Source: Sulfurimonas sp. HSL-1716 (GTDB lineage: Bacteria > Campylobacterota > Campylobacteria > Campylobacterales > Sulfurimonadaceae). From it: a stretch of 64,000 nucleotides of DNA. A model generated the notes under the pieces. It was not told the origin of the DNA, did no database searches, and was given only the letters and a program-made list of their open reading frames with translations. Position 1 is the first letter of the stretch. Every line of letters starts with the position of its first letter. A program made the position numbers and the translations under genes. The stretch lies in contig NZ_CP147918.1 of assembly GCF_039645975.1 (NCBI RefSeq), forward strand, positions 1,364,001 through 1,428,000. Reading direction: 5' to 3'. Shown piece after piece: positions 5,634 through 44,473 of this stretch.

Positions 5634-6484
5634 AAAAGACAATATTTCTGCTTCTCATTCCTTTTGCACTTTTTGCATCAAAGATATTAAGCTATAACGT
5701 CTATGACAGAAGCGACAGGGTCGATGTAATGTTCACGTTCGACACTCCCTACGAAGGAGTCATAAGCCAAAAGACGTCAAACTCAAAAATAATAATCAAG
5801 CTTGAAGACGCGACGATAGAATCCCAAAAGACAAAACAGCTGACATCGCCTTATTTGACTCAGCTGACCATTACCCCGGTATCCGGTTATACTCAAATCA
5901 CCGCATATGTTCCTGCCAACGTAAACCTGCAGGCATCAAAAACATCCGATGCGTACGGACTCCGCTTAAGATTTAACAAAACTGCCCCTGCGTTACAGAC
6001 AAGCGCCACCGGCTCGGTCGCAGCTCTGCCTACAAAAAAAGACCTCAAGATCTCAAGCGGCTACTATATCGTCATTGCTGTTTTGCTTGCAGGTCTTGTC
6101 TTCGTTTTTTATTTAAAGAGAAAAATGGCAAACCCGGCAAAAAGATCTCCAGGTGCACCAAAACCTGCAAGAAGACCATGGCTTTTTAGTAGCAAAAATG
6201 CCGAGCAGGAAGATGTAAATATACGTTTTTCAAAACAGATAGATCAAGTAAACAAAGTGATCATGGTCGATTACGGAAATCTAAGCTATCTTATCCTGGC
6301 AGGCAACGACAACATTCTTCTGGATAAATTCGAAGACAACAAACCCGTAACGACCAACGAATTTGAAGAGATACTCAAATCCCGTAACGAAGAGCTTACG
6401 AATCTTTTACAGATAAAGAATAAAGAAAAAGAACCTTTTCAGACATATAAGGAAAAAGCCGCTTCGATAGCATATGACGTTTAA
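5630..6484 (+). CDS. fliO: FliO-like flagellar export component with a periplasmic AMIN-like domain
   Basis: A 284-residue single-pass membrane protein. Residues 1-17 form a signal peptide (KKTIFLLLIPFALFA). Residues 18-125 are a beta-rich periplasmic domain (YNVYDRSDRVDVMFTFDTPY), like the AMIN domain of envelope proteins. A transmembrane helix spans about 144-163, and the cytoplasmic tail includes VDYGNLSYLILAGNDNILLDKF. That last stretch resembles the FliO core, in which a conserved strand is followed by an LLG-type motif. FliO helps assemble FliP in the flagellar export gate. Helicobacter pylori FliO is known to carry a comparable periplasmic extension. It overlaps fliN by 4 bases and ends tail-to-tail with the kinase gene. 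I infer FliO from topology, tail and neighbour; an unrelated membrane protein is possible. Confidence 0.65.
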   Translation: MKKTIFLLLIPFALFASKILSYNVYDRSDRVDVMFTFDTPYEGVISQKTSNSKIIIKLEDATIESQKTKQLTSPYLTQLTITPVSGYTQITAYVPANVNLQASKTSDAYGLRLRFNKTAPALQTSATGSVAALPTKKDLKISSGYYIVIAVLLAGLVFVFYLKRKMANPAKRSPGAPKPARRPWLFSSKNAEQEDVNIRFSKQIDQVNKVIMVDYGNLSYLILAGNDNILLDKFEDNKPVTTNEFEEILKSRNEELTNLLQIKNKEKEPFQTYKEKAASIAYDV

Positions 6485-8118
6485 CGGATGTTAAAGTAGA
6501 TTATCAGCACGATGTTTAAAATAAACATGACCGTAAAGGCCGTTCTGTAAAAGAGCAGAGGCGAGCGTTCTATGATCGAGCTGTCTTTTGGAAAAAACGG
6601 CTTGACCTTTTGCGGGAACTGCAGTTCATACATCATCTCAGAATAGTGCTGGTACCTCCTGTGTGTCTCTATGGCTATGGCTCGAAGTATCACGCTGTCG
6701 AGCCAATCGGGAATATTTTTATTGTATACGCTCGGCTTTTTTGCTTCTTTGAACGAAGGGTTTGAAAAAGGTTCTATCTCTCCGTAAGGATATTTTTTCG
6801 TCAATGCCATATAAAGCGTAACGCCGATGGCAAATATCTCCGTTATCTCGCTGATCGCTTCGTTCTTAAATCTCTGAGGAGAAAGATAACTCGGGGTTCC
6901 GGCTCTTGAACTTGTAGAAAATATCTCTGTGATGCTTCCGAAATCTATGATCTTAAAATCGATGCCGCTGCCGTTTTGCATCACCATTATATTTTTTGGT
7001 TTGATGTCACCGTGAACCAGATCGTACCGCAAAAGATACTGGGACATGCCCAAAAGGGCCCTGCCTAGTTCTATGGCGTCGTCTATGCTTATATGTTTAT
7101 GCTGCAGATGACTTTGCAGATCTTCACCCTCTAGCAGCGGCATTATGTAGTAGCGGCATGTCCTCTTCTTGGGTATCACGGCCTTAGGAAAAAAAACAGA
7201 GTTTAATCTTTTTGCGTTCCATGCCTCTTTTACGTAAAGGTCCAATATCCTTTCATCGTCGATCGCTTCAAGAGGCGGAAACTTTATAACATAGCGTCTG
7301 TTTTTTTTCAAACATATCCATGTCCTTTCGTTTTGGGCAAGCGGCTTGTTTAAAACGTATCCGTCGATTATTTGATCTTTTTTCAATGCTCTTAAAACCG
7401 GCAGGCGCAGCTGTTTTAATATTTCGAACTCATCTACTTTTACGATATCCAAGACAACGGCGGTAGTGTCGTCCGGAAGATCATGGCGCATTATCTTGCT
7501 GGCTTTTTTTACAAGTCCGTGAGCCCCGAATCCTATGCCGTTTTCAAGTCGGTTTTTATCCATTATATTGTAAAGACCGTCGCTGCACAGCAGTATCTTA
7601 TCGCCTTTTTGAATAATGTTCTCGAAATAGTAGGGTTCTATCTCCTCCTCTATGCCGAGGGCTTTTGTAAGGACATCTTCATATCCTTCTTCTTGCATGA
7701 CATGATCTTGGGAGAGTTTATTTATACTGCCGTCTCTATAAAGATAGATCCTGCTGTCTCCGGCATTTGCACCGTAGAGGCGGTTTCCTTCAATGACGAC
7801 CAGTGCCAGAGTCGTAACGAGTTCAGGACGCTCATACTCTACGATCGACTCTTTATATAAAATGGAATTGATCGACTTTATAAAAGTGATGATCGATTTT
7901 TCGATACTCCAGCTTTTTGGACGCATCTTGAAGTTGTTAATAAGATATGAAGTTACCCTCGATGCGGCTTCGGCTCCCTCGGCGGCACTTCCGACTCCGT
8001 CGCAGACTATGGCGACGGTCAAACCTCCAAGAGTCTTTACCTCAAAAAAATCATCACCGAGAAGCTCTTTGCCTTTTACGAGAGTAAATCCGGAACTTTT
8101 TATATTGGTAAAGGGCAT
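6481..8118 (-). CDS. Bifunctional PP2C-type phosphatase / Ser-Thr protein kinase with C-terminal membrane anchor
   Basis: Fusion of a PP2C (PPM) phosphatase and a Hanks-type kinase in 545 residues. Phosphatase, residues 1-225: metal ligands in GDDFF (22-23), VCDGVG (40-41), AGDSR, CSDGLY and DDTTA (216-217) are all present. Kinase, residues 250-510: the beta-3 lysine is in VIKFP (279), the catalytic loop is HGDIKPKN (369-376, HGD in place of HRD) and the Mg loop is DFGS (392-395). The glycine loop is degenerate. Residues 520-545 are a membrane helix, so the enzyme is anchored with both domains in the cytoplasm. It begins 13 bases after the nitrate transporter, with which it must be co-transcribed. 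The likely role is control of nitrate uptake or assimilation by reversible phosphorylation, inferred only from context. It overlaps the preceding gene tail-to-tail by 4 bases. Confidence 0.88.
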   Translation of the reverse strand: MPFTNIKSSGFTLVKGKELLGDDFFEVKTLGGLTVAIVCDGVGSAAEGAEAASRVTSYLINNFKMRPKSWSIEKSIITFIKSINSILYKESIVEYERPELVTTLALVVIEGNRLYGANAGDSRIYLYRDGSINKLSQDHVMQEEGYEDVLTKALGIEEEIEPYYFENIIQKGDKILLCSDGLYNIMDKNRLENGIGFGAHGLVKKASKIMRHDLPDDTTAVVLDIVKVDEFEILKQLRLPVLRALKKDQIIDGYVLNKPLAQNERTWICLKKNRRYVIKFPPLEAIDDERILDLYVKEAWNAKRLNSVFFPKAVIPKKRTCRYYIMPLLEGEDLQSHLQHKHISIDDAIELGRALLGMSQYLLRYDLVHGDIKPKNIMVMQNGSGIDFKIIDFGSITEIFSTSSRAGTPSYLSPQRFKNEAISEITEIFAIGVTLYMALTKKYPYGEIEPFSNPSFKEAKKPSVYNKNIPDWLDSVILRAIAIETHRRYQHYSEMMYELQFPQKVKPFFPKDSSIIERSPLLFYRTAFTVMFILNIVLIIYFNIR

Positions 8119-35131: not shown

Positions 35132-36184
35132 ATGAAACTTCTCGTCAGCGCCCTGGAACATTCCGCGAACATCCATCTAAAAGCTTTAAAACAGGAGCTC
35201 AGCCCTGATGTAGAATTTATCGGTATCTTCGACAAAGAGCTCGGAACTCCGCTCATAGATCTCTCGTCTCTGGCTATCATGGGGTTTGTCGACGCGATAA
35301 AAAAACTGAGATTTTTCTTCAAGCTCAATACGCAGATGGCAGAACTCGCACGTGATGCCGACAAGGTCTTGCTCATGGATTCATCGGGATTCAATCTCCC
35401 TCTTGCAAAGAAGATAAGAAAAAAATACCCCGACAAAGAGATCATCTACTATATCCTGCCGCAGGCCTGGGCTTGGAAACAAAAGAGAATTCCCGTTTTA
35501 GAACGTACCATCACGCATCTGGCCTCCATCCTGCCCTTTGAAAAGGACTACTACTCTAAAAACGCACCCATAACCTACGTGGGGCATCCCCTCTTAGACG
35601 AGATAAAAGAGTTTAAAGAAACACTTTCGCAAACGAACAAGATAGCTTTCATGCCCGGAAGCCGCAGAGGCGAGATAAAAAAACTGATGCCCGTGTTTGA
35701 AGAACTCAGAGAAAAACTGGAGTGCGAAGCGTATATTATCGTCCCAAAACAGTTCACTAAAGAAGATATAAAAGAAGTTTACGGTACCCTAACGAAATTT
35801 AAAATTGTTCACGATGCGCATCAGACTTTACGGGAGTGCGACTTCGCTTTTATATGCAGCGGAACGGCTACGCTTGAAGCCGCACTCATAGGGATCCCGT
35901 TCATTTTAAGCTACATCGCAAAGCCGCTTGATTATTTTCTGGCAAGCAGGCTGGTGAAGCTTGATTATATCGGTCTTGGCAACATCATGTTCGAAAAGTT
36001 CAAAGGCGAACCGCTTCATCCTGAGTTCATCCAGGACGAAGTGACGCCGGACAATCTTTTTGAAGCATATAAAAAATTTGACAGAGAAAAGTTTCTGAAC
36101 AATTCAAAAGAGTTACGAAAATATTTAGGCCATGGAAGTTCCAAAACAGTAGCATCGATCATAGAGGAAAAGAATGAAGATTAA
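35132..36184 (+). CDS. lpxB: Lipid-A-disaccharide synthase
   Basis: Inner-membrane-associated glycosyltransferase (GT19) of 350 residues that condenses lipid X with its UDP-activated precursor into the lipid A disaccharide. Diagnostic segments: ALEHSANIHLKAL near the N-terminus, YYILPQAWAWKQKR near 113, IAFMPGSRRGEIKKL near 170 and FAFICSGTATLEAALIGIPF near 245. It heads a four-gene operon (lpxB-gnnB-gnnA-LpxA paralogue) with an 11-base overlap to the next gene. The neighbours imply that its substrate carries 3-amino sugar. Confidence 0.96.
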   Translation: MKLLVSALEHSANIHLKALKQELSPDVEFIGIFDKELGTPLIDLSSLAIMGFVDAIKKLRFFFKLNTQMAELARDADKVLLMDSSGFNLPLAKKIRKKYPDKEIIYYILPQAWAWKQKRIPVLERTITHLASILPFEKDYYSKNAPITYVGHPLLDEIKEFKETLSQTNKIAFMPGSRRGEIKKLMPVFEELREKLECEAYIIVPKQFTKEDIKEVYGTLTKFKIVHDAHQTLRECDFAFICSGTATLEAALIGIPFILSYIAKPLDYFLASRLVKLDYIGLGNIMFEKFKGEPLHPEFIQDEVTPDNLFEAYKKFDREKFLNNSKELRKYLGHGSSKTVASIIEEKNED

Positions 36185-37265
36185 TTTTATAGATTTACAG
36201 GCGCAGTATCAAGAGTATAAGACGGAGATTGACAAAGAGGTAAGCGAAGTCTTTGCGAGTGCGGGATTCATAGGAGGACCGAAACTCGAAGCTTTTGAAA
36301 AAAACATCGCAGCATATACGGGCGTAAAACATGCCATCGGATGCAGCAGCGGGACAGATGCGCTTTTACTTGCCCTTATGGCGCTCGACGTCAAAGCGGG
36401 TGATGAGATCATCACAACTCCTTTTACGTTTATAGCGACTGCCGAAGTGATCGCATTTTTAGGTGCAAAACCGGTATTTGCCGATATTGACGAAAAAACA
36501 TACAATATCGATACATCCAAGATAGAAAACCTTATCACGGCAAAAACAAAAGCGATCATTCCCGTGTCTCTTTACGGACAATGTGCGGATATGGACGAGA
36601 TAAACGCTATTGCCGACAAACACGGTCTTACGGTCATAGAGGACGCTTGCCAAAGCTTCGGCGCACAGTATAAAGACAAAAGATCATGCGCTCTCTCATC
36701 AATCGGCTGTACGAGTTTCTTCCCTTCCAAACCTCTTGGCGCATACGGCGACGGCGGAGCTATCTTTACCGACGATGATGAACTGGCTTCAAAGATGAGA
36801 ATGCTTCTAAACCATGGACAAAACGAGAGATACAAGCACAAATATATAGGAATAAACGGCCGTCTTGACGCCGTTCAAGCCGCAATACTCGACGTCAAAC
36901 TCCGTCATTTTGACAAAGAGGTGAAACTGAGACAGGATATCGGTCAAAGATATACGCTGCTTCTCGCCGATGCCGATGTCGTGACTCCATATATCGCAGA
37001 CGATAGAACAAGCGTCTACGCACAATACTCCATAAGGGTAAAAGACAGAGCTGCAACGATCGCGAAGCTGAGCGAGAGATCTATCCCGACAGCCGTTCAT
37101 TACCCGATGCCGCTTCACCTTCAAGAAGCTTTTGCGTATCTTGGATACAAAGAGGGGGATTTTCCTGTCTCCGAAAAGATATCAAACGAGATCATGTCTC
37201 TTCCGATGAGTCCGTATCTTACGGATGAACAGCAAGATTTTATAGTAGCAGCGATAAAAGGATAA
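36174..37265 (+). CDS. gnnB: UDP-GlcNAc C3 aminotransferase for lipid A (GnnB), DegT/DnrJ family
   Basis: PLP-dependent aminotransferase of 363 residues. FIDLQAQYQEYK starts the fold, GCSSGTDALLLALMALDV (near 58-75) binds PLP phosphate, EDACQSFGA is near 157, and the Schiff-base Lys is in FFPSKPLGAYGDGG near 185. The family also makes surface sugars such as those of WbpE. Placement between lpxB and an oxidoreductase plus LpxA-type protein fits GnnB, known from Acidithiobacillus and C. jejuni, which puts an amino group on C3 of UDP-GlcNAc so that lipid A has amide-linked acyl chains. It lies 2 bases from gnnA. An O-antigen role is the alternative. Confidence 0.8.
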   Translation: MKINFIDLQAQYQEYKTEIDKEVSEVFASAGFIGGPKLEAFEKNIAAYTGVKHAIGCSSGTDALLLALMALDVKAGDEIITTPFTFIATAEVIAFLGAKPVFADIDEKTYNIDTSKIENLITAKTKAIIPVSLYGQCADMDEINAIADKHGLTVIEDACQSFGAQYKDKRSCALSSIGCTSFFPSKPLGAYGDGGAIFTDDDELASKMRMLLNHGQNERYKHKYIGINGRLDAVQAAILDVKLRHFDKEVKLRQDIGQRYTLLLADADVVTPYIADDRTSVYAQYSIRVKDRAATIAKLSERSIPTAVHYPMPLHLQEAFAYLGYKEGDFPVSEKISNEIMSLPMSPYLTDEQQDFIVAAIKG

Positions 37266-37267
37266 GT

Positions 37268-38164
37268 ATGATAAGAATAGCGATCATAGGTCTGGGCGCG
37301 ATGGGGAAAAACCATTACCGCATACTAAGTATGCTTGACGAAGTAGAGGTCTGCGCACTCTGTGACGTCGTACAAAACGACCCCTACAAAGAACCTTTTT
37401 TCCATGATGTGGATGAGATGTTAAAAAACGCAAAACCCGATGCCGTCATCATCGCCGTTCCGACATTCCTGCATAAAGAGGTCGCTCTCAAATGCGCGGC
37501 TCAAGGCGTACATCTTTTTATCGAAAAACCGGCTGCTTCGACCGTACAAGATGCAAAAGATATCCTTAACGCCGTAAATGCGGCAGGAGTCAAAAGCTGT
37601 GTCGGTCATGTCGAAAGATTCAATCCCGTCGTTCAGGCGCTTAAAGAGGAACTCTCGAGCAAAGAGATATTTTCCGTGGCAATCACGCGTGTCGGACCGT
37701 TCCCTCCGCGCATCGCCGATGTCGGAGTACTCACGGACCTCTCGGTGCATGACATCGATCTTATCCGTTTTATAACGCACAGAGACATACTCAACCAGTC
37801 TATCTTCAAATCAAGAAAGATCCATAATCACCATGAAGACAATGCGGTACTTAGTTTCGAACTGACGGATTCGGTCATAGCCAATATCACGACAAACTGG
37901 CTTACTCCGTTTAAAAAACGCTGCATAGAGGTGGCTTGTCAGGATTCTTACTTTGAAGCCGATCTGATAGCGCAAAGTCTTACCGAATACTCATCGTTTA
38001 GCACAAACAACTCCTATGTCGTCAGAGGCTGCCACATCAAAAAAGACGAGCCGCTCATAAAAGAGCTGGAAACTTTCATAGCATACCTCAAAACAGGCGA
38101 ACGTGCATCTCTTGCTTCCATAGAAGACAGCATCATCACGCTCAAGATCGCAATCCACTCATGA
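37268..38164 (+). CDS. gnnA: UDP-GlcNAc C3 dehydrogenase for lipid A (GnnA), Gfo/Idh/MocA family
   Basis: NAD-dependent sugar oxidoreductase of 298 residues. The N-terminal Rossmann motif is IAIIGLGAMGKNHYRIL (3-19), the EKP motif of the family lies in HLFIEKPAAST near 85, and VGHVERFNP near 113 and LSVHDIDLIRFI near 158 line the active site. GnnA oxidises the 3-OH of UDP-GlcNAc to the keto sugar that GnnB aminates. Assignment comes from family plus operon position between gnnB and an LpxA paralogue (4-base overlap). The broader family could serve other sugar pathways. Confidence 0.78.
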   Translation: MIRIAIIGLGAMGKNHYRILSMLDEVEVCALCDVVQNDPYKEPFFHDVDEMLKNAKPDAVIIAVPTFLHKEVALKCAAQGVHLFIEKPAASTVQDAKDILNAVNAAGVKSCVGHVERFNPVVQALKEELSSKEIFSVAITRVGPFPPRIADVGVLTDLSVHDIDLIRFITHRDILNQSIFKSRKIHNHHEDNAVLSFELTDSVIANITTNWLTPFKKRCIEVACQDSYFEADLIAQSLTEYSSFSTNNSYVVRGCHIKKDEPLIKELETFIAYLKTGERASLASIEDSIITLKIAIHS

Positions 38165-38886
38165 TAGACAAAACAACCATCATAGAAGACGGCGCTTCGA
38201 TCGCCGAAGACGCGGTCATCGGACCTTTTTGTTTCATAGGCAGAGACACGGTGATAGCTTCGGGCGTAAACATCGCTTCAAACGTGATCATAAAAGGTAA
38301 AACGACCCTGGAAGAGAATACAAAGATATTCAGTTTCGCAACGATAGGAAACGAAAGCTCGACGATCAGGATAGGAAAAAACACGCACGTCCGCGAATTT
38401 GTCCAGATCGGTACACAGGAGAGCGATAACAAACAAAGTATCGAAATAAGCCATGACAACTTCATAATGGCATATGTACAGATCATGAACGGCGTGAAGA
38501 TAGCCAATAACTGCGTACTCACAAATGCCGTAAGACTTTATGAGAACGTCAAATGCGAAGAGCGCGTCATTATCGGCGGGCTGAGTACGGTCGAAGAAAA
38601 CAACCGCATAGGGACGGGAGTGATGATCGGCGGAGCTTCCTACGTCAATCACGATATCCCGCCGTTTTGTCTGGTCGAAGGAAACCGTTCCAGCATCAAA
38701 GGTCTCAATATCATAGGTCTCAGACGAAGACTGGAAAATCCTGATGATATAGAGGAGATAAAAGCCGCGTACAAAAAACTTCTCAGCCACGGCGTCGATA
38801 AAGAGACGGCAAAAACACTTGAGCAAGAAAGCCAAAACGGCTACGTCAAACTATTTGCAGGATTCATCAAAGAGAGCAATCTATAA
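38161..38886 (+). CDS. LpxA paralogue (left-handed beta-helix) without catalytic histidines
   Basis: Hexapeptide-repeat acyltransferase homologue of 241 residues, colinear with E. coli LpxA (262 residues) through EGASIxxxxxIGPFC, DNFIMAYVQI, VIIGGLSTVEE, the ends IGGASYVNHDIPPF and GLNIIGLRRR, and the helical tail. One N-terminal coil is missing. E. coli catalytic and substrate residues H122, H125, H144 and H160 correspond here to Q107, N110, N129 and E145. Normal LpxA acyl transfer is therefore unlikely, unless chemistry is altered for the more reactive amine of UDP-GlcNAc3N. It is the last gene of the lpxB operon. A hairpin GAGAGCA/TGCTCTC (38872-38896) spans its stop. Confidence 0.82.
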   Translation: MIDKTTIIEDGASIAEDAVIGPFCFIGRDTVIASGVNIASNVIIKGKTTLEENTKIFSFATIGNESSTIRIGKNTHVREFVQIGTQESDNKQSIEISHDNFIMAYVQIMNGVKIANNCVLTNAVRLYENVKCEERVIIGGLSTVEENNRIGTGVMIGGASYVNHDIPPFCLVEGNRSSIKGLNIIGLRRRLENPDDIEEIKAAYKKLLSHGVDKETAKTLEQESQNGYVKLFAGFIKESNL

Positions 38887-38904
38887 ATATGCTCTCCTGA
38901 GTGC

Positions 38905-38940
38905 AAAACAAAATTCTTCCCCTGCTAAAACAAAATTCTT
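38905..38940 (+). repeat. Two direct copies of AAAACAAAATTCTT, 22 bases apart
   Basis: The 14-mer is at 38905-38918 and 38927-38940. The preceding TGC(T) returns a third time at 38945-38948 with the same 22-base spacing, about two helical turns. It lies 80-115 bases upstream of the beta-barrel gene at 39018, so it may be a regulator-binding array. Too few copies for CRISPR. Confidence 0.6.
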
Positions 38941-39017
38941 TTTGTGCTAAAAAAAGGTTGTTTTGGAAAATACAATCCAATATACTTGTGTTACAAATTA
39001 TAGATAAAGGCAGGAAC

Positions 39018-39569
39018 ATGAAAAAACTATTGGCCGTAACAACAACAGCTTTAATGCTAAGCGGCGCATTATATGCAGATTCGAACTTTTACGGAAAAGT
39101 TGCTTTAGGATATGAGGATGCAAATAATATTACAAATAGCAATTATAATATAGATGCCGGTACAGGTGTTAACACTATGATGGCGATCGGTTATCGTTAT
39201 AAAGACTTTGCAATTGAGGGTGAATATTCTCATTCAAAAGTAAATTATAATAATAAAAATCTAAATTATAAAAATGATATTACCGTTAATTCATACATAG
39301 TAAATGCACTCTACTATATTGACTTAAAATCGGTAGTAACGCCTTATCTTGGTGTAGGTATCGGTACTTCTGCATATGACGACGGTATCTCGACCGACAA
39401 TGTCAGAACTTACGAAGGTACGGCAGGTATAGCAATAGCCATGAATAAAAGTCTGGATATTACAGCCGAATATAAATATAGAAAATTTGACGTAAAAGGT
39501 ATAGGTACCAATGCCGATCCGGATACCAGTACAAACTCATATATGCTGGGTCTGCTCTATAAATTCTAA
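39018..39569 (+). CDS. Small outer-membrane beta-barrel protein
   Basis: A 183-residue exported protein. A signal peptide (MKKLLAVTTTALMLSGALYA) is followed by alternating polar/aromatic strands (FYGKVALGYEDA, MAIGYRYKDFAIEGEYSHS, YIVNALYYIDLKSVVTPYLGVGIG, IAMNKSLDITAEYKYRKF) and a terminal aromatic, YKF, typical of OmpA/OmpX-like porin-type barrels of eight strands. The frame extends upstream to 38901, but AGGCAGGAAC just before the ATG at 39018 and the signal peptide fix the start. It is AT-rich compared with neighbours. Function unknown. Convergent with the AraC gene 12 bases away. Confidence 0.82.
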   Translation: MKKLLAVTTTALMLSGALYADSNFYGKVALGYEDANNITNSNYNIDAGTGVNTMMAIGYRYKDFAIEGEYSHSKVNYNNKNLNYKNDITVNSYIVNALYYIDLKSVVTPYLGVGIGTSAYDDGISTDNVRTYEGTAGIAIAMNKSLDITAEYKYRKFDVKGIGTNADPDTSTNSYMLGLLYKF

Positions 39570-42722: not shown

Positions 42723-43325
42723 TTAACTATTAAATTCTTCTTTATACCTATTTAAAGCATCAATTGTTTTTTTTAAGCTTGGAGAGTTTTTCATTGCTCT
42801 ATTTAAATCCCAATAATTGTCAATAAACTCTTTTATTGTTGAATTGTAAGCAGGACCTATAGAAGCACCACTATTTGGTAATATAGCTTCTTTATATTTA
42901 CGTTTATTAGATTTTTTAACTACTCTAAACACTTCATTTTTAGGATCATTTAACTCATCTGGGTTATTTACAAAATTAGCAATAGGAATATTAAGAAATT
43001 GAGAAAAACCTTCTTTATCAGCAAGAAGCCAAGATTCAATTTCTCTTACAACAATCCTAAAAAACAACTTGTCATTCTTTGATATTTCACCTAACCAATC
43101 GTTTATTTTAGCTGACGGACAAGGATCATTGTCTAAATCTGTTAAAATAAAGTAGTGTATATATTCAGCTGCTTGATTATATTTGTGAATTGCTTTTTTA
43201 ATATTGCCATAACCATTTTTACAATCTTCCCGAAAAATACAAAACTCTTGTGGAAATTCTCTTAAAATTTTACGAATTATTTCTATACTCGGAGCATCTT
43301 CACCTACAATATAAAAATTAATCAT
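42723..43325 (-). CDS. DUF4276 family TOPRIM-like protein paired with AAA ATPase
   Basis: A 200-residue protein with an acidic, TOPRIM-like layout. A strand, FYIVGED (E9), is followed by helix SIEIIRKILREF. A second strand ends in LTDLDND (D63, D65, D67), and REIESWLLAD (E95, E97, D103) is the characteristic DUF4276 segment. In OLD-family and topoisomerase enzymes the E and DxD bind metal for cleavage, so this may be a nuclease or effector. It overlaps the upstream ATPase by 4 bases (ATGA). The genes form a low-GC pair unlike the flanks (17 of 60 and 19 of 60 in sampled lines). It resembles AriB of PARIS in plan but belongs to a different family. Function is inferred. Confidence 0.72.
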   Translation of the reverse strand: MINFYIVGEDAPSIEIIRKILREFPQEFCIFREDCKNGYGNIKKAIHKYNQAAEYIHYFILTDLDNDPCPSAKINDWLGEISKNDKLFFRIVVREIESWLLADKEGFSQFLNIPIANFVNNPDELNDPKNEVFRVVKKSNKRKYKEAILPNSGASIGPAYNSTIKEFIDNYWDLNRAMKNSPSLKKTIDALNRYKEEFNS

Positions 43326-44473
43326 TCAAATTCAAAGACCAATTGATTAAGATTTTTTGGTTTAATAATAGGCTTAATTATTTCTCCAACGCTAAAACCA
43401 CCTGCAAGCATGGCTTGTACTTCAGTTAAACTAGATACATTGCGGACACTTGTACCTTCTCTATCTGGAGACAATAAAAACACTTCATTTCCACCTATAG
43501 ATTTTGCATTCAATAAATCTATACTATGAGTAGTCATAATAACTTGACGCTTACGTTTTAGTTTTGCTTGAATTCTAAAAATTAGTTCTGGTAATTGTTC
43601 AACTATTGCAGTATTTAATGAAAGTTCTGGTTCTTCTAATAATAATAAAGCTTCACCTTCTTGTAAAGACCATAATAATGCAATTAAACGCAAAGTTCCG
43701 TCTGAAAACTGTTCTTCTCGTTGTTTAGCATCTTTTCCTCGCCAGTTATCATAACTAGTTTCTAAATGTGGTTTACCTTCATCATCTTTAATATATTTAA
43801 GTTCTTTAAATTGTGGAACTGCTATTCTTAAAGCTTGTTCTATTCTTCTTAATCTCGCATCTCTTGTAGGTGAAGGTGTTTTAGCTATATGCTGTAAAAA
43901 ATTTTTTCCAAAAGGATCATCTGATCTTTCATATCCAATAAATTCTTGTGAATGCCTAATTAATTGAGGAATCAAGTGCAAATATAATGTTTTTTCAAAG
44001 AAAATTGCCAGCTCACGGAACTGTGCATTAGCATTAATTTGTTCAATATACGTTTGAGTTAACCTCTTATCATCATTCTTATCATCTTTATCTGGGCGAT
44101 CAATGAGCATAGTTTTATTTTTCCACACTTGCTCCTTTGCTACTACGACAGGGTTTTTACCTCCTTTTTCTTGCTTAATACTTAAAAAATATCTCCATGT
44201 TGTGTCTTCATCATCCACTTCTATATCTATTTCTACGTCAGGATTTTGTCTCGCTGCTAAACATCTTATTTTAGTTAATCCACCTCTATCTTTAACTGCT
44301 TTTTGAAGCCCACCACCTGTCTCTTTTGCTATCTCTCTAATGAAACGAAATACATCAAGAAAATTAGATTTACCTGCTGCATTTGGACCAACAATAAATA
44401 CTCGATTATCTAAGTTTATGTCTATATCTCTAAAATTTTTCCAATTTTTTAGCTGTAATCGTTTAATCTGCAT
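43322..44473 (-). CDS. AAA_21/OLD-like ATPase of a putative defence pair
   Basis: SMC/OLD-type ABC ATPase of 383 residues. Walker A is VGPNAAGKSNF (28-38), the signature-like motif is FSDGTLRLIALL near 258, Walker B is LLLLEEPE (276-283) and the His switch is TTHS (314-317). A helical insertion holding KTLYLHLIPQLIRHSQEF lies between. All catalytic motifs are intact. It carries no nuclease domain of its own; the TOPRIM-like partner follows with a 4-base overlap, as in two-gene OLD-type systems. The first codon is ATG at 44473, 20 bases after the -10 at 44493. Codon use is AT-rich, suggesting recent acquisition. Confidence 0.85.
   Translation of the reverse strand: MQIKRLQLKNWKNFRDIDINLDNRVFIVGPNAAGKSNFLDVFRFIREIAKETGGGLQKAVKDRGGLTKIRCLAARQNPDVEIDIEVDDEDTTWRYFLSIKQEKGGKNPVVVAKEQVWKNKTMLIDRPDKDDKNDDKRLTQTYIEQINANAQFRELAIFFEKTLYLHLIPQLIRHSQEFIGYERSDDPFGKNFLQHIAKTPSPTRDARLRRIEQALRIAVPQFKELKYIKDDEGKPHLETSYDNWRGKDAKQREEQFSDGTLRLIALLWSLQEGEALLLLEEPELSLNTAIVEQLPELIFRIQAKLKRKRQVIMTTHSIDLLNAKSIGGNEVFLLSPDREGTSVRNVSSLTEVQAMLAGGFSVGEIIKPIIKPKNLNQLVFEFE

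Follow-up and report, generated by a model that had tools for sequence, protein, structure and literature searches.

An LpxA paralogue without catalytic histidines beside gnnA and gnnB in Sulfurimonas, a candidate base-free N-acyltransferase

Sulfurimonas sp. HSL-1716 carries, besides a normal LpxA, a conserved paralogue, lpxA2, in which all four active-site histidines are replaced and the substrate loop is deleted while the UDP-binding side of the protein is kept. We give a probability of about 0.55 to the reading that lpxA2 would be a dedicated N-acyltransferase for UDP-GlcNAc3N that works without a base, giving a lipid A with a mixed backbone. LpxA starts the synthesis of lipid A, the fatty anchor of the outer membrane; it is an enzyme that uses a histidine base and a drug target, and its active site sits between two subunits. 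The window, that is, the whole stretch of DNA analysed here, covers 64,000 nucleotides of contig NZ_CP147918.1 (positions 1,364,001 to 1,428,000 of the forward strand) of a genome that is a single contig of 2.26 Mb and 99.8% complete. The features discussed below are as follows, in window coordinates.

35132-36184, + strand: lpxB, which opens the cassette and encodes lipid A disaccharide synthase (TIGR00215 score 273.5 bits, cut-off 190)
36174-37265, + strand: gnnB-like DegT aminotransferase (nearest solved structure the sugar C3-aminotransferase WbpE, E 4e-119)
37268-38164, + strand: gnnA-like NAD-dependent 3-dehydrogenase, GFO/IDH/MocA (NCBIfam UDP-GlcNAc 3-dehydrogenase, E 1e-69, under its cut-off)
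38161-38886, + strand: lpxA2, LpxA paralogue of 241 aa, left-handed beta-helix and C-terminal helical domain; retains the UDP half-site but not the catalytic/GlcNAc one
38350-38355, + strand: N64-E65 junction, site of the deleted E. coli LpxA residues 71-79 (alignment; loop absent in 58 of 58 paralogues)
38479-38481, + strand: Q107, the H122 position (alignment, paralogue profile)
38488-38490, + strand: N110, the position of the general base H125 (alignment; unconserved among orthologues)
38542-38544, + strand: E128, the position of the oxyanion-hole G143 (alignment; role of G143 from PMC6286764)
38545-38547, + strand: N129, the H144 position (alignment, paralogue profile)
38593-38595, + strand: E145, the H160 position (alignment, paralogue profile)
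38707-38730, + strand: N183-I-I-G186-L-R-R189-R190, the kept, predicted UDP-binding half-site (E. coli N198, G201, R204, R205; roles from PMC6286764 and PMC7072397)

Fold and active site of lpxA2

The lpxA2 product has the LpxA fold over its full length, with an Acetyltransf_11 domain as its C-terminal part. It scores 201.7 bits (E 1e-59) against NCBIfam TIGR01852, under the equivalog cut-off of 231.05, and it matches LpxA structures in the PDB with E values down to 9e-42. A single-chain AlphaFold2 model, made from an alignment of 29 orthologues and with a mean pLDDT of 92, is predicted to resemble LpxA structures at Z about 29-31, the best match of the model being C. jejuni LpxA 3r0s (Z 31.2, rmsd 1.9, 240 residues); the modelled match to QdtC has a Z of 21. 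The LpxA fold alone was found, with no added regulatory domain in either the domain search or the model. A misannotated LpxD could be ruled out, since the match to LpxD covers the helix part only, the N-terminal uridine-binding domain is absent, and there is no histidine at the catalytic site. The intact open reading frame, the existence of 58 distinct paralogues and the low dN/dS likewise rule out a pseudogene or frameshift.

With E. coli K-12 LpxA as the reference for residue numbering, alignment to the window protein bore out the original observation that H122, H125, H144 and H160 are replaced by Q107, N110, N129 and E145. Further changes are G143 to E128, D126 to G111, Q161 to E146 and H99 to G84. 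The associated claim of a core that aligns without gaps holds for the stretch from H122 to H160 and fails for the beta-helix core as a whole, because nine residues, E. coli 71-79, are deleted together with the substrate loop Q73-D74-L75-K76. When histidines were looked for in close orthologues, none of the 58 paralogues had one at the H122, H125 or H144 position and two had one at the H160 position. Conservation of Q/N/N/E as a set, also raised in advance, did not hold among these paralogues. In the weighted paralogue profile, the H122 position is Q in 82%, the G143 position E in 83%, the H144 position N in 70% and the H160 position E in 70%, and the H125 position drifts between S, P, N, G, F, D and others, with an entropy at the 80th percentile of columns. 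Because this position is among the more variable ones, a conserved new catalytic tetrad of Q/N/N/E was ruled out. From the sequence it is sound to infer, as was done at the outset, that the loss of H125 should abolish O-acylation.

The losses are neither chance nor sequencing error, since they are common to 58 paralogues in one clade under purifying selection. In a tree of a 23-row sample, a long branch separates the lpxA2 paralogues from all normal LpxAs and they form this single clade with a support of 100/100. The dN/dS is about 0.04-0.055, with dS saturated for pairs that include the window gene. lpxA2 thus arose in one old event, from a source that the tree does not place.

What is lost and what is kept follows the division of the active site between chains. 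In the LpxA structure 2QIA, N198 and R205 from one chain contact the uracil, and the other chain supplies G143, H99, H122, Q73, H125, D126, H144, K76, L75 and Q161 (PMC6286764); 2JF3 shows the same two-chain division of active-site residues (PMC7072397, Table 1). In the window protein, none of the ten residues supplied by the GlcNAc/catalytic chain of 2QIA survives, each being either replaced or deleted, and N198 and R205 are kept. The predicted UDP half-site is retained at N198, R204, R205, M118 and M170, its residues being invariant or nearly so, as are the acyl-pocket glycine G173 and the C-terminal LpxA domain. Among 64 positions with a conservation of 90% or more in normal LpxA, lpxA2 keeps 38; these include none of the 10 tested on the GlcNAc/catalytic side and all 6 on the UDP side. 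A Fisher test of the GlcNAc side versus all other positions gives a p of 3.5e-5, which is descriptive only, the positions having been picked from the literature. Q107, G111, E128 and T121, all located at or close to the lost side, have become newly conserved, which suggests that the lost face still does something.

The cassette and its companion genes

The gene lpxA2 is the last in a tight run in which lpxB runs 11 bp into gnnB and the gnnA stop overlaps the lpxA2 start by 4 bp. The gnnA product comes closest to the UDP-GlcNAc 3-dehydrogenase model, scoring 235 bits against NF040723, an archaeal equivalog with a cut-off of 450, and had no matches in a PDB search at E 1e-20. The A. ferrooxidans GnnA and GnnB make UDP-GlcNAc3N (PMC8036547), and by analogy the gnnA and gnnB of the cassette together would do so as well. 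The cassette is well conserved: of 44 named lpxA2 loci, 42 have a contig that reaches upstream, and gnnA precedes lpxA2 in all of these (in one with a 1.7-kb gap) and lpxB heads the cassette in 38. The cassette extends beyond Sulfurimonadaceae, two of the 44 loci belonging to MAGs of Sulfurovum and Campylobacteraceae. Other families of Campylobacterota have gnnB-gnnA without lpxA2, and in these the genes after gnnA are either fabZ-lpxA or unrelated ones. Directly 3' of lpxA2 in the window lies a gene for an outer-membrane beta-barrel protein (OMP_b-brl; 38901-39569, + strand), the true start of which is probably internal to the listed ORF. Elsewhere in the window, a 383-aa AAA-type ATPase followed, with a 4-bp overlap, by a 200-aa protein was seen by eye (42723-44473, - strand), from its sequence possibly a defence module in the style of OLD/RloA-RloB, and a PP2C-type phosphatase and a Ser/Thr protein kinase are fused in one protein (6481-8118, - strand).

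Among 101 sampled Sulfurimonadaceae genomes, gnnA was present in all 31 that bear lpxA2, and it occurred without lpxA2 in two, G050 and G056, the contig of the latter ending inside gnnA. An independent-pairs test of the two genes had only 2 informative pairs. Genome G050 (L189, L198), which has lpxB-gnnB-gnnA and an ordinary, QDLK-bearing LpxA but lacks lpxA2, is a useful natural control for lpxA2 function.

A second, histidine-containing lpxA was looked for in the host genome and found, with all four histidines, at G000:C1:1660295 in the order fabZ-lpxA-clpX, and lpxA2 as the sole LpxA of the genome is thereby ruled out. H125 is kept in all 102 normal LpxAs compared. The normal LpxA of genomes with lpxA2 has QDLK and all four histidines in 21 of 21 cases, as in 26 of 27 gnnA-less genomes, and for this reason it looks, by its sequence, tuned to UDP-GlcNAc. 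The host genome further has one LpxC and, outside the window, two tandem LpxD genes (L239 and L240, G000:C1:1233830-1235728), both with the expected catalytic-type histidines when compared by eye with E. coli H239 and H276. Two LpxD genes were present in 16 of 23 lpxA2 genomes, 2 of the 374 others among 397 genomes of the class, and 0 of 72 with gnnA and no lpxA2, counts that ignore common descent; the second LpxD therefore tracks lpxA2 and not gnnA as such. This pattern suggests a separate branch, being the one expected if lpxA2 feeds it.

The gnnA-bearing families without lpxA2 that were examined all keep the four histidines. In family f10, genomes with gnnA and without lpxA2 have K76 changed to Gly in their sole LpxA and all histidines kept, and in an Arcobacteraceae-like genome (G224, family f7; L187:4309-5100) a second LpxA adjoins gnnB and has QSLG for QDLK with the histidines kept, on its own a separate LpxA duplication beside gnnB in another family. 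GlcNAc3N use alone was ruled out as the cause of the histidine loss, because these gnnA-linked relatives keep histidine with a presumed amine substrate. Changes in the K76 loop are thus frequent in gnnA-linked LpxAs, with lpxA2 at the extreme. We also observed that K76 is Gly or Ser in single-LpxA, mostly gnnA-bearing lineages (L202 and L204-L211 of f10; the Campylobacter-type L131, L147 and L154), and this change could possibly be a sequence mark of GlcNAc3N use. A general rule that gnnA implies loss of K76 was rejected, as some gnnA-bearing genomes (f8, G434, G050) keep it.

Base-free N-acylation and competing explanations

For lpxA2 we infer a substrate, an acyl donor, base-free catalysis and a lipid A structure, as follows. 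GnnA would oxidise the 3-OH and GnnB would transaminate it to give UDP-GlcNAc3N, a 3-amino sugar, the UDP part of which lpxA2 would hold via the usual LpxA half-site. An acyl group from acyl-ACP would then be transferred by lpxA2 to the 3-amine, and the histidine base needed for a hydroxyl could be missing because the amine would be nucleophilic enough. UDP-GlcNAc, which is abundant, would not be acylated by lpxA2, because the base, the GlcNAc loop and the oxyanion glycine are missing. The O-acyl route would remain with the cell's normal LpxA, and the lipid A backbone would therefore mix GlcN and GlcN3N, with the second LpxD perhaps serving the amide branch. The acyl donor of lpxA2 may differ from that of LpxA, because the residues that read the acyl 3-hydroxyl, H122, Q73 and H99, are gone.

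Of the three roles originally suggested, structural partner, regulator and amine acyltransferase, the gnnB-gnnA neighbours and the co-occurrence speak for the last, and the half-site pattern lends some support to a structural partner. N-acylation is further favoured by the normal LpxA with QDLK and all histidines, the separate duplication in G224, and the retention of the UDP side, the fold and purifying selection. A precedent for base-free amine acylation in this fold is ApmA, a left-handed beta-helix enzyme that still N-acetylates after His135Ala (PMC7885111). A counter-precedent is the N-acyltransferase LpxD, in which H239A lowers kcat by nearly three orders of magnitude (PMC6286764). The histidines kept by gnnA-linked LpxAs elsewhere, the missing contacts to the acyl 3-hydroxyl and the Glu in place of the oxyanion glycine also argue against N-acylation, and the co-occurrence counts are not phylogenetically independent.

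The division of the losses along the subunit boundary, with the residues of one chain gone and N198 and R205 of the other kept (PMC6286764, PMC7072397), would also be expected if lpxA2 were inactive alone and joined normal LpxA in mixed trimers. Its UDP face and the histidine face of normal LpxA would make a complete site, with an effect on rate, on chain length or on the choice of sugar, such as a preference for UDP-GlcNAc3N, and both the constant presence of a normal LpxA and the free drift of the H125 position fit this idea. However, an unused face would need no newly conserved Q107, G111, E128 and T121, the normal LpxA has no complementary decay and the same signature in genomes without lpxA2, and a separate branch is a better fit to the association with gnnA and a second LpxD. 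We hold such a pseudoenzyme, the main rival of N-acylation, to be somewhat unlikely. That a hetero-oligomer of LpxA2 and normal LpxA runs the first step of lipid A synthesis, its make-up setting the ratio of O-linked to N-linked chains, is in our judgement unlikely.

Another donor and product would be involved if LpxA2 acetylated UDP-GlcNAc3N, or added some other non-3-hydroxy acyl group, in the manner of WbpD/WlbB, for O-antigen or another glycan and not for lipid A. The lost contacts to the acyl 3-hydroxyl, the closeness of gnnB to WbpE of a diacetamido-sugar pathway in the PDB, and the shared fold of QdtC-type N-acetyltransferases agree with this, but both sequence and fold lie much nearer to LpxA, G173 is kept along with the C-terminal LpxA domain, and lpxA2 is accompanied by the lipid A genes lpxB, at the head of the cassette, and the second LpxD; we consider this rather improbable. 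Highly doubtful, finally, is a role without catalysis, in which lpxA2 would sense UDP-sugar or act as a scaffold and so control the flux of lipid A through the GnnA/GnnB branch. This would account for kept UDP-binding and lost catalytic residues, but the lack of an added regulatory domain and the new conserved residues lining the former GlcNAc side speak against it.

Relation to known enzymes and meaning

The lpxA2 product resembles LpxA (E. coli 1lxa, C. jejuni 3r0s, L. interrogans 3hsq) in its full-length fold, UDP half-site, G173 and modelled Z of 29-31, and differs from it in lacking H122, H125, H144, H160, G143, D126, Q161 and the loop 71-79 and in falling under the LpxA equivalog cut-off. 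With the gnnA-linked or GlcNAc3N-using LpxAs of A. ferrooxidans, C. jejuni and L. interrogans it shares the genomic link to gnnA-gnnB and, by analogy, a presumed UDP-GlcNAc3N acceptor; unlike lpxA2, the LpxAs of gnnA genomes without it keep the four histidines, and several change only K76 to Gly or Ser. LpxD, like lpxA2 as proposed here, is a beta-helix acyltransferase acting on an amine, but it has an N-terminal domain and a catalytic histidine, and lpxA2 matches its helix part only. ApmA and the QdtC/WlbB-type N-acetyltransferases also combine a beta-helix with an amine acceptor, as proposed for lpxA2, but they use acetyl-CoA, are distant in sequence and have different C-terminal parts. Duplications of the LpxA gene have already been reported, for example in Geobacter sulfurreducens (PMC3087551). 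In the open-licence literature, we found no report of a conserved LpxA lineage without the catalytic histidines and the substrate loop.

That a second LpxD goes with lpxA2 suggests two parallel branches of the Raetz pathway in one cell. The lpxA2 lineage is a natural test of whether the amide linkage of lipid A needs a base, and it offers a chance to learn how a cell separates the O-linked and N-linked routes to lipid A.
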